Assembly (NCBI RefSeq): GCF_026162365.1 | Contig: NZ_JAOANW010000002.1 | Location: 372,001-436,000 of the forward strand | DNA from: Nitratireductor luteus | Lineage (GTDB): Bacteria > Pseudomonadota > Alphaproteobacteria > Rhizobiales > Rhizobiaceae | Direction: 5' to 3' | DNA: 64,000 nucleotides | Shown: piece after piece, positions 4,094-7,734 of the stretch | Layout of the letters: every line of letters starts with the position of its first letter | Numbering within the stretch: position 1 is the first letter of the stretch | The notes under the pieces: generated by a model | What the model saw: the letters and a program-made list of their open reading frames with translations, nothing else | Database searches by the model: none | What the model was told of the DNA's origin: nothing | Translations under genes and position numbers: made by a program

Positions 4094-4105
4094 GGATTGT
4101 CCCTC

Positions 4106-4813
4106 ATGCGACGAGCGGACAGGCTGTTCCAGATCGTCCAGCATCTGCGGGGAGGCAGGCTCGTTACGGCCCGTATACTCTCCGAGCGGCTGGAAGTTTC
4201 GGAACGCACGATATACCGCGACATCGCCGATCTTCAGTCGACCGGCGTTCCGATCGACGGAGAGGCGGGCGTGGGCTATCTCATGCGCGAAGGCTTTGAG
4301 CTGCCGCCGCTGATGTTTACGCGCGACGAGATCGTGGCATTGGTGGCAGGAGCCCGCATGGTGCGCGCCTTCGGCGGCGCGGCCATGGCCCGGGCGGCCG
4401 AGGAGGCGCTGGTCAAGATCGGCACCGTGCTGCCCGAAGCCGAGCGCGAGCGTATTTCACGAACCGAGATCCACACGCCCGACTGGGTGATCTCGGATGC
4501 CGAGCGCCTCATCATCGACGAACTGGAAAAAGCGATCGAGCAGCGGCGGGTGCTGCGGCTCGACTATCGCGACGAGGCCGGCCGCGGCACGCTGCGGGAG
4601 GTGCGCCCGCTTGGACTGTGGTTCTGGGGCAAGGTGTGGACGCTGGTCGGCTGGTGTGAGCTGCGCGGCGATTTCCGTGCCTTCCGCATCGACCGCATCG
4701 CGGTGATGAGCGAAGCCGGGCGCACTTTCAAGCCCGAACGCGGCAAACAGCTTGGCGATTTCTACCGCCGGCTGGAGCTGCGGGAGGGCTCCGGCAACGG
4801 CCACGACAGGTGA
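4106..4813 (+). CDS. YafY-type HTH/WYL-domain transcriptional regulator
   Basis: The product has 235 residues. The N-terminal HTH_11 domain (MRRADRLFQIVQHL, then SERLEVSERTIYRDIADLQS) binds DNA, and the C-terminal WYL domain (about residues 130-220, including LRLDYRDEAGRGTLREVRPLGLWFW in two parts) is an effector or ligand-binding module. AAGGA at 4092-4096 points to the ATG at 4106. It is co-transcribed with the VOC gene. Two matching palindromes upstream in this cluster are the likely binding sites. A 10-bp hairpin follows the stop. Confidence 0.9.
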   Translation: MRRADRLFQIVQHLRGGRLVTARILSERLEVSERTIYRDIADLQSTGVPIDGEAGVGYLMREGFELPPLMFTRDEIVALVAGARMVRAFGGAAMARAAEEALVKIGTVLPEAERERISRTEIHTPDWVISDAERLIIDELEKAIEQRRVLRLDYRDEAGRGTLREVRPLGLWFWGKVWTLVGWCELRGDFRAFRIDRIAVMSEAGRTFKPERGKQLGDFYRRLELREGSGNGHDR

Positions 4814-4842
4814 TCCCAGCTACCTCGGCGCTGGATAACAAA

Positions 4843-4866
4843 AGGGCTGTCCTTACGGACAGCCCT
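4843..4866. terminator. Bidirectional hairpin terminator
   Basis: AGGGCTGTCC (4843-4852) and GGACAGCCCT (4857-4866) form a perfect 10-bp stem with a TTAC loop. Read on the minus strand the stem is followed by TTTGTT; read on the plus strand it is followed by CGTGTTTTCG. It can therefore end both the regulator transcript and the short minus-strand transcript that carries the 22-residue reading frame. Confidence 0.75.
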
Positions 4867-4930
4867 CGTGTTTTCGTATTCTCACGCGGCCCTGGCAGGC
4901 CTCAACAGGCCCGTCCGCGCTTCATGCGCT

Positions 4931-4999
4931 TCAGCGGAAAGACTGCTCCCCGCAAAGGCAATCCATCGAGACCACGCTTGAACGGAAATCACTCGACAT
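4931..4999 (-). CDS. Putative 22-residue peptide with an unusually strong ribosome site
   Basis: On the minus strand GAAAGGAGGTGATCCA immediately precedes an ATG. This is an almost complete complement of the 3' end of 16S rRNA, with 7 bases between GGAGG and the start. The frame encodes MSSDFRSSVVSMDCLCGEQS followed by FR and a TGA stop, and contains a Cys-Leu-Cys motif. The hairpin at 4843-4866 lies about 65 bases downstream in the same direction, so a transcript of roughly 200 bases is plausible. I recognise no homologue. It could be a real small protein, a leader peptide without a target, or a small RNA that exposes a ribosome-binding motif. Confidence 0.45.
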   Translation of the reverse strand: MSSDFRSSVVSMDCLCGEQSFR

Positions 5000-5126
5000 T
5001 GGATCACCTCCTTTCGTTTCGTTGCTGATGGACGCAATGTGGAGCCTAACGCCGTCATCTGCAAGAGGCGGATCCCGCAGGATGTCGATTCCTTGCATTC
5101 GGGCCGAATAGAGAGCAGGTTGCCCT

Positions 5127-5408
5127 ATGGGACGGGGCGCCAAGATGATCTCTATGACGGTCTTCCTGACGATGTTCGTCGCGGGAGGTCCCTTAATGGC
5201 AGCTCCTCCAGAGTTGCGCGTTTCAACGCCCTCGGACGTCGTTCAAGCACAGGCAAGCTGCAAGGCGGTAAGCTCCTGCCGTGAAGCAGTTGTCATGTGG
5301 TGCAATGGTTACCGGCGTGCCGACGGAGATGGCGACGGGATACCTTGCGAGAATGTGTGTCCGGACAAGAGGCTGGTCGACCAGATACGTCGTGAGATCG
5401 GATGCTGA
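5127..5408 (+). CDS. Secreted Excalibur-type calcium-binding small protein
   Basis: The product has 93 residues. A signal peptide (MISMTVFLTMFVAGGPLMA) is followed by a short cysteine-rich domain with CKAVSSCREAVVMWCNGYRR and DGDGDGIPCENVC, which is the Excalibur pattern (DxDxDGxxCE). Excalibur domains are small extracytoplasmic modules thought to bind calcium. I use the ATG at 5127; the ATG at 5145 would give a cleaner signal peptide. It is convergent with acs and separated from it by a strong hairpin. Function is unknown. Confidence 0.75.
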   Translation: MGRGAKMISMTVFLTMFVAGGPLMAAPPELRVSTPSDVVQAQASCKAVSSCREAVVMWCNGYRRADGDGDGIPCENVCPDKRLVDQIRREIGC

Positions 5409-5448
5409 CCGGGCACGATCTACTTGGCGACAGGAACGGGCTGTAGAA

Positions 5449-5471
5449 CCGGAGGCGCCCGGCGCCTCCGG
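5449..5471. terminator. GC-rich hairpin between convergent genes
   Basis: CCGGAGGCG and CGCCTCCGG pair perfectly around CCCGG, between the Excalibur gene and the end of acs. There is no T-run on either strand, so any termination role is uncertain. Confidence 0.4.
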
Positions 5472-5492
5472 CTCGCAACGCGGAACCTGTCT

Positions 5493-7448
5493 TCACCCGC
5501 GCTTGTTCTGACGGTTCTCCACGAGGTCCTCGACGACGGCCGGGTCGGCCAGCGTCGAGGTGTCGCCGAGCGCCGTATAGTCGTCCTCGGCGATCTTGCG
5601 CAGGATGCGGCGCATGATCTTGCCGGAGCGGGTCTTGGGCAGACCGGGCGCGAACTGGATCTTGTCGGGCGAAGCGATCGGCCCGATCTCGCTGCGCACA
5701 TGGCCAACCAGTTCCTTTTTCAGTTCTTCGGATCCCTCCTCGCCGGCCATCAGCGTGACGTAGCAATAGATGCCCTGGCCCTTCAAATCGTGAGGATAGC
5801 CCACAACCGCAGCCTCGGAGACCTTCGGGTGAGAGACGAGCGCGGACTCCACCTCGGCCGTGCCCATGCGGTGGCCGGAGACGTTGATCACATCGTCGAC
5901 GCGGCCGGTGATCCAGTAATAGCCGTCCTCGTCGCAGCGGCAGCCGTCACCGGTGAAGTACTTGCCCTTGTAGGTCGAGAAATAGGTCTGGATGAAGCGC
6001 TCATGGTCGCCATAGACGGTGCGCATCTGCCCGGGCCAGGAATCGGCAATGCACAGATTGCCGCTGGCCGCCCCCTCCAGAACATTGCCATCGCCGTCGA
6101 CAAGCTGCGGTCTGACGCCGAAGAAGGGGCGGGTGGCCGAACCCGCCTTGAGGTCCGTTGCACCCGGCAGCGGCGAGATGAGAATGCCGCCGGTCTCCGT
6201 CTGCCACCATGTGTCGACGATGGGCGAGCGCTCGTCGCCGACGACCTTGTAGTACCATTCCCAGGCTTCCGGATTGATCGGCTCGCCGACCGTGCCGAGG
6301 ACGCGCAGCGACTTGCGCGAGGTCTTCTTCACATGATCGTCGCCGGCGCCCATCAGCGCCCGGATGGCGGTGGGCGCGGTGTAGAAGATGTTGACCTTGT
6401 GCTTGTCGATGACCTGCCAGAAACGCGAGGCGTCGGGATAGTTGGGCACGCCCTCGAACATCAGCGTTTGCGCGCCATTGGCCAGCGGGCCGTAGACGAT
6501 ATAGCTGTGGCCGGTCACCCAGCCGACATCCGCGGTGCACCAGTAGATATCGCCGTCGTGGTAGTCGAAGACATATTGGTGCGTCAACGACGTATAAACG
6601 AGATAGCCGCCGGTGGTATGCAGCACGCCCTTGGGCTTGCCGGTGGAGCCGGAGGTATAGAGGATGAAGAGCGGATCCTCCGCGTTCATCTTCTCCGGTT
6701 CGCAATCCGTCGACGCCTTCGAGGTCTCGTCGTCATAGGACAGGTCGCGGCCGTCGACCCAGTTCACGTCGGTGCCGGTGCGGCGCACGACCAGGACGTT
6801 GCGCACCTTGGCGCCGGCCTTCTCGGCGATCTCGATGGCCTTGTCCGTATTTGCCTTGAGGGGGACCTTCTTGCCGCCGCGCAGGCCTTCATCGGCGGTG
6901 ATGACAAAATCGGACCTGCAGTCGTCGATGCGGCCCGCCAGCGAATCGGGCGAGAAGCCGCCGAACACGACGGAATGGACCGCGCCGATGCGGGCGCAGG
7001 CAAGCATCGCATAAGCGGCCTCCGGTATCATCGGCATGTAGATCGTGACGCGGTCGCCCTTCTTCACGCCGTTCGATTTCATCACATTGGCGAGCCGGCA
7101 TACGCGCTCATGAAGCTCGCGATAGGTAATCTTCTTGTCTTCGGCCGGGTCGTCCCCTTCCCACAGGATCGCAGTCTGGTTCCCGCGCTCTTCCAGGTGG
7201 CGGTCGATGCAGTTGTAGGAGGCATTGGTGGTGCCGTCCTCGAACCATTTAATGGAGACGTCGCCTTCGAAGGAGGTGTTCTTCACCTTCGTGAAAGGAG
7301 TGAACCAGTCGATGCGCTTGCCGTGCTCCGACCAGAAGGCCTCGGGGTCTTCGATGCTGTCCTTGTACCATTTTTCATAGGTGTCCTTGTCGATCAGAGC
7401 GTCTTTCTTCCACTCCTGCTTGACCCGATGAACGTGCACTTCGGACAT
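5493..7448 (-). CDS. acs: Acetyl-CoA synthetase (AMP-forming)
   Basis: Acs activates acetate to acetyl-CoA through acetyl-AMP. The 651-residue length is normal for the family. The P-loop-like motif [11 protein letters not shown] and the C-terminal TRSGKIMRR are present; Lys610 in the latter is the residue whose acetylation inactivates Acs enzymes. GGAGGAGGT just before the ATG at 7448 fixes the start. The gene is transcribed alone, divergently from usg across a 286-base spacer that shows no clear regulatory motif. Confidence 0.97.
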
Positions 7449-7734
7449 GATACCTCCTCCAGACAATTACGCGGCATAAGCCATCGCGGGCGCAAGAGGC
7501 GCCCGCTTTCGCGCGCATTATTAACATTCTGGCTGTGACCACAACATTAGACAATGGCTGGGGTAGGGGGCCGGGACAGGGCCAGGGTGGGGACGCACAG
7601 GCACTGGGCCGGACACCGCAATGAGCCGATTGTTAGCAGTGAGTTGGCTATGCTGCTAACGTATTGCTTTCATGAAACTTTTACCGGCTTGGAGCATTTT
7701 GGTTCTGGACGGTCAAGTCATGCGAGGACACAAT

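Follow-up and report, generated by a model that had tools for sequence, protein, structure and literature searches.

Might a small RNA do its work simply by being translated, whatever peptide results? This testable question is raised by a locus in a 64,000-nucleotide stretch of the Nitratireductor luteus genome, here called the window, in which a first-pass annotation had proposed a small minus-strand gene. Its parts were said to be a near-perfect Shine-Dalgarno (SD) sequence, a 22-codon frame with a stop encoding a Cys-Leu-Cys peptide, and a downstream 10-bp hairpin with a T-rich end. All of these were found: the frame lies where it had been placed and ends in TGA, the hairpin has 11 pairs, and the proposal of a complete small unit of transcription and translation is well supported. 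The elements of the RNA gene are the following.

5036-5065 (minus strand): weak promoter-like site, CTTGCA (5065-5060), an 18-nt spacer and CACATT (5041-5036), recognised by eye and by conservation.
5000-5015 (minus strand): extended SD, GAAAGGAGGTGATCCA, 16 nt complementary to the 3' tail of 16S rRNA.
4931-4999 (minus strand): 22-codon open reading frame (ORF), MSSDFRSSVVSMDCLCGEQSFR, with ATG at 4999-4997 and TGA at 4933-4931.
4969-4992 (minus strand): 5' arm of a closing helix, within ORF codons 3-11, from the window fold and from swapped-arm and sister-pair tests on relatives.
4934-4953 (minus strand): hairpin GCGGGGAG-CAGU-CUUUCCGC with the conserved GGAGCAGYCU motif and the stop codon directly after it, from the window fold and both-sided changes in the consensus fold.
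4868-4892 (minus strand): 3' arm of the closing helix, immediately 5' of the terminator, from the window fold and the tests on relatives.
4838-4867 (minus strand): intrinsic terminator (stem 4867-4842, 11 pairs) with a T-rich end.

Two signs may point to a transcript of its own, the terminator and the conserved promoter-like site. The 901 bases searched held two terminator-like sites, one per strand of the same palindrome, against 0.6 in shuffles, and a terminator was present in 242 of 256 related loci. A scan of the locus with the sigma-70 consensus found no promoter. Between -82 and -50 of the start codon, 43 of 47 Rhizobiales-like loci carried a TTG-type -35 element, compared with 17 of 47 in a control stretch of the same length further downstream; for CTTG the counts were 39 of 47 and, in the downstream control, 8 of 47. 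We predict from these features a small RNA of about 190 nt, with a 5' end that we guess to lie near 5029. Transcription evidence for a relative comes from Mesorhizobium huakuii, where MH_s33, annotated as CC2171, is listed as a 215-nt transcript by RNA-seq (PMC5596092).

The gene that lies beyond the terminator, at 4097-4813 on the plus strand, is convergent to the RNA gene. From its sequence features we take its product to be a WYL-type regulator. On the other side, a small secreted protein gene (5127-5408, plus strand) is divergent from the RNA gene, and its protein ends in an excalibur-like DGDGIPCE stretch; next comes a gene at 5493-7466 on the minus strand, presumably acs by the same kind of recognition. 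When plasmids were searched with window positions 4700-5500, the sole match was the excalibur-gene stretch, in three Microvirga records, and the RNA gene was unmatched. A short ORF followed by a terminator is also the layout of a leader-peptide attenuator controlling a downstream gene, but the convergent gene in the window and the neighbouring genes that differ between lineages make this extremely unlikely here. UpsM, which precedes mraZ in Rhodobacter, suggested an mraZ leader as a specific form of this idea; it was dropped after a crude motif search of 80 named loci, covering at most 8 kb each, met no mraZ-like ORF. In six Rhodobacterales loci (L106, L108, L112, L119, L121 and L141) a membrane-protein ORF ends shortly upstream of the RNA gene, and this ORF resembles, as far as we can judge, a queuosine-precursor transporter.

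The most conspicuous element of the RNA is its ribosome site. Sixteen contiguous bases (5015-5000) match the complement of the 16S tail, which bears out the near-perfect SD that had been claimed. A general reference tail was used; it matched 237 plasmid and chromid records, 209 of them at 99% or more, mostly alphaproteobacterial (e.g. Rhizobium and Phyllobacterium) with eight from Acinetobacter. Because no 16S gene was found in the strain's genome, nor the 16S-tail pattern in any of the 16 genomes of the genus, we infer the complementarity to the strain's own 16S. The length of the site is its special feature, since the inner 11-mer of GAAAGGAGGTGATCC occurs three times in the genome, no more often than its reversed control (also three), whereas the whole of GAAAGGAGGTGATCC occurs once in 4.9 Mb and its reversed control not at all.

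This site is also kept. Loss of both frame and ribosome site in close relatives, which the first-pass annotation had asked about, was not observed: of 61 genomes, 39 showed DNA similarity to the locus, as did 15 of the 16 belonging to the genus (its own included), and SD and start codon were present in 52 of 52 loci fetched by DNA-similarity and RF01867 searches, the window's own among them. The strict SD pattern fits 48 of these 52, and the other four have an SD core longer by one base. An SD variant with an extra core base, GAAAGGAAGGTGATCC, was seen in L069, L075, L080 and L093, ahead of ORFs of the MSSEI/MSNEI type. The same long SD and start also precede secreted-protein-like ORFs of 55-59 codons (L178, L218, L299 and L300), so that this arrangement seems to be shared with other genes.

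An RNA that titrates ribosomes or other mRNAs had been proposed as one possibility, and this was half right, in that the RNA looks built for the capture of 30S subunits, with titration a putative effect. The long SD could be read as a sponge, occupying 30S subunits or blocking the anti-SD on many ribosomes, with its 16 nt of complementarity and its standing as the single long site in the genome. We consider a sponge unlikely. The element is present as a rule once per genome, with two matches in only one of the 91 genomes positive for the SD-start pattern, against ribosomes that generally number in the thousands, and a sponge would need neither an ORF of fixed length, nor a stop, nor a closing helix.

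To which family, then, does the locus belong? The Rfam model RF01867 (CC2171) matched the window with 39.4 bits (E 6.6e-7) over model positions 1-159, its full length, from the SD to the terminator, a span that takes in the closing helix of 7 bp in the consensus structure. The score is below the gathering score of 75, and Rfam at its gathering threshold gave nothing in the window. The best relatives with the same SD and ORF scored 93.6 and 86.1 bits. RF01867 matched 44 of 81 related genomes, one above the cut-off, and among 14 control genomes only Caulobacter vibrioides. Eight loci chosen from Rhizobiales, Bradyrhizobium, Rhodobacterales, a Porphyrobacter and a Brevundimonas all matched at E of 1.6e-4 or less, two above the cut-off, which ties these groups together. 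The Rfam entry files CC2171 as an sRNA, and the entry lines consulted hold no coding frame; for this family, Rfam 15 adds one covarying pair (PMC11701678).

A degenerate SD-start pattern with one mismatch allowed was found in 91 of 385 genomes of the class and its reversed control in none. In a separate search across the phylum, 72 of 135 alphaproteobacterial genomes had a hit, and none of the 263 genomes from outside the class did. Loci chosen in this way keep the SD by construction, because the pattern contains SD and start. The orders represented in the 80 matches listed, out of at least 117, were Rhizobiales, Rhodobacterales, Sphingomonadales, Caulobacterales and Acetobacterales. A match in Virgisporangium opens a 201-codon ORF and was rejected as a family member. 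A 31-nt consensus had no match among plasmids.

Such genes also go by a second name. Hahn et al. reportedly described in 2017 rreB of Bradyrhizobiaceae and rreR of Rhodobacter and Roseobacter, extended-SD small mRNAs said to be about 165 nt long, to have an SD complementary to the 16S tail over 16 nt or more, and to carry an ORF of 14 or 18 codons. The window has those 16 nt before a short ORF, and our 14-codon Bradyrhizobium and 18-codon Rhodobacterales loci fit those ORFs; the window ORF differs in having 22 codons from an ATG, and its peptide is unrelated to either. The locus is a real, widely conserved gene of an already known kind, and the word 'overlooked' used of it at first does not wholly apply, given that CC2171 is an element of this sort and that rreB/rreR were reportedly described in 2017. 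Its membership of an alphaproteobacterial family filed as sRNA CC2171 and, reportedly, as the rreB/rreR small mRNAs is very probable, and the two filings, one 'non-coding' and one of mRNAs, look like a single family across the five orders named above.

One candidate for the function of the RNA is the peptide. The 256 distinct loci used to count ORF lengths were picked by the SD-start pattern, and in 245 of them (95.7%) the frame opened by the SD runs for 12-31 codons, compared with 30% and 22% for the other frames. This length is specific to the frame, and the distance from start to stop is therefore under selection. The amino acids behave differently. Values of pN/pS were 2.11 in the Chelativorans-like group (12 unique sequences), 0.91 in the 18-codon VSR type (21), 1.32 in the 18-codon MSHG type (27), 1.15 in the 14-codon Bradyrhizobium type (5) and 1.13 in a 23-aa set (3); purifying selection on amino acids was seen in none of the five groups. 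The Cys-Leu-Cys peptide is real, though it occurs in just 3 of 16 near relatives and in 3 of the 251 peptides that do not exceed 40 aa.

An apparent C-terminal EQPL is better explained as RNA. The motif GGAGCAGCCU, which occupies +49 to +57 counting from the start, is read in the EQP frame in 50 loci and in the other two frames in 8 and 3 (two off-position matches were left out), and its occurrence in all three frames identifies it as an RNA motif. All 61 loci have an in-frame stop no more than 27 nt past the motif, compared with 24 of 122 when the two remaining frames are read; these counts come from related loci and are not independent. In the 11 of the 61 loci with an unusual motif frame the in-frame stop is still close behind.

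These observations bear on two simpler explanations. The first is that a functional small peptide is encoded and the RNA features merely tune its expression. In its favour, SD, start, frame and stop are all kept, and some lineages share a peptide, such as KRCHLAGIAR in nine 14-codon loci. However, the pN/pS values do not bear this out, the conserved EQPL turns up in three frames, and the 30 nt behind KRCHLAGIAR are identical down to third positions in the Bradyrhizobium loci compared. The lack of amino-acid conservation speaks against the 'overlooked small protein' of the first-pass annotation, and we regard a peptide function as improbable. The second explanation, a non-coding base-pairing sRNA in which the frame is incidental, agrees with the filing of CC2171 as an sRNA and with the strong structure of the RNA. 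It is harder to square with a constraint on length and stop that is specific to one frame and with a long SD immediately 5' of the start codon, and we judge it very unlikely. To judge from these patterns, the ORF appears to be selected for being translated, and its peptide sequence appears not to be.

What could translation without a selected product achieve? The fold of the RNA may provide an answer. The fold of the window sequence had a z of -3.76, with 2 of 200 shuffles equally good, and consists of the closing helix (4992-4969 with 4892-4868) and the hairpin at 4953-4934 that abuts the stop. For comparison we used 188 non-redundant loci from 235 with a terminator and a short ORF. In a swapped-arm test, which sets each locus's own windows against partners swapped in from other loci, a single antidiagonal stood out (Z to -14.9), in which +5 to +40 of the ORF pairs with the 45 nt before the terminator. 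Other sizeable values, around +80 in the loop, reached only -5.5. The test gave no signal for the SD and almost none for the motif; the SD is invariant, and so the test is blind to its pairing. An antiterminator formed by GGAGCAGCC with the 5' arm of the terminator was considered and set aside, with Z of only -1.4 to -2.1 at +50 against the terminator start.

The closing helix also held up within two of the groups that we defined by peptide patterns (A-E). In group A, 84 of 88 loci did better with their own arms than with the average swapped pair, and in group B 47 of 53 did, with 0 of 2000 permutations as low. The effect was marginal in group E (14-codon, 5 of 7; 74 of 2000) and not significant in groups C (VSR, 13 of 18; 149 of 2000) and D (MSHG, 13 of 22; 591 of 2000). 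Over 82 non-overlapping sister pairs the mean coupling was -1.72 kcal/mol (54 negative, 26 positive, 2 zero; Wilcoxon p 9e-6, sign test p 0.002), while control regions gave +0.22 (32 negative, 41 positive) and -0.35 (43 negative, 32 positive). Coupling was strong in pairs below 85% identity (37 negative against 7 positive) and absent in those above (17 negative, 19 positive). The predicted closing pairing rose above 0.3 at 123 of the 188 loci; after the segments were shuffled, 25 of 188 did so. Seven base pairs joining the early ORF to the segment just ahead of the terminator are already drawn in the CC2171 consensus, and in our comparisons the helix is longer than this and covaries. RNAalifold on ordinary MAFFT alignments recovered the hairpin with changes on both sides and did not recover the closing helix; on close relatives it preferred a nearly invariant rival fold, in which GUGAUCC of the SD pairs with GGAUUGC of the ORF.

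Comparison of the loci shows that the ribosome site, the length of the ORF, the place of its stop, the helix and the hairpin are constrained, with no constraint seen on the amino acids. Our main reading, to which we give a probability of roughly 0.6, is a free-standing, ribosome-loaded small mRNA in which translation of a sequence-indifferent ORF opens the fold, that is, a ribosome-gated riboregulator and not a template for a useful peptide. The extended SD would capture 30S subunits despite a start next to a strong fold. Every round of translation would then unwind the closing helix and the hairpin and terminate right after the hairpin, before the 3' arm. Loading would in this way switch the RNA between closed and open forms and set its stability or the exposure of its hairpin, and the end effect may lie in a target RNA, a protein partner or solely the decay of the RNA itself. 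The rival fold of SD with ORF would suit a switch equally well. For the gating step taken by itself, we put the chances a little short of even.

A broader version is more doubtful, namely that the family is an alphaproteobacteria-wide riboregulator with an empty message, which reads ribosome availability, staying closed when 30S subunits are scarce and being opened by ribosome transit whatever the peptide. Selection would then preserve the ribosome site and the start, hold the ORF short and maintain a stop right after the hairpin in any frame, and the codons would double as one arm of the closing helix. The rreB RNA is said to co-sediment with 30S subunits, to be weakly translated and to be stabilised once its start codon is turned into a stop, a behaviour that would fit ribosome gating. 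For this RNA gene, being translated seems to outweigh what is made, an unusual logic that can be tested.

Among characterised RNAs, rnTrpL/peTrpL of Sinorhizobium meliloti, a dual-function RNA, is similar in being a small transcript of an alphaproteobacterium whose translated ORF is very short (PMC10117765, PMC7298713). It differs in being leaderless, where the RNA described here has a long SD, and this RNA has neither a biosynthetic operon downstream in the window nor a conserved peptide. In the same species, 54 translated sORFs without annotation were counted, a third of them located on annotated sRNAs, and SEP1, 23 aa long, may be the gene described here (PMC10117765). In the titles and partial texts searched, nothing linked the CC2171 sRNA to a coding RNA, and the papers met for rreB and rreR were unrelated by their titles. 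The union of CC2171 with rreB/rreR and a translated, peptide-indifferent ORF was likewise not met in that material; it may have been printed earlier, chiefly in the original papers.

Lineages differ in the predicted pairing of the SD. The predicted probability that the SD core is unpaired averaged only 0.30 over the 188 loci. In the 14-codon Bradyrhizobium group it was 0.17 for the core and 0.01 for the start, and in the VSR (Rhodobacterales-type) group 0.02 and 0.07. As a general rule, sequestration of the SD is doubtful, the prediction being strong only in the VSR group; it stays a candidate as a rival fold, the one that RNAalifold prefers on close relatives. Rhodobacterales-type loci such as L106, L119 and L141 carry an anti-SD-like CCTCC stretch shortly before the terminator, and this stretch, together with an SD and start predicted to be almost fully paired, perhaps gives that group a stronger off state.
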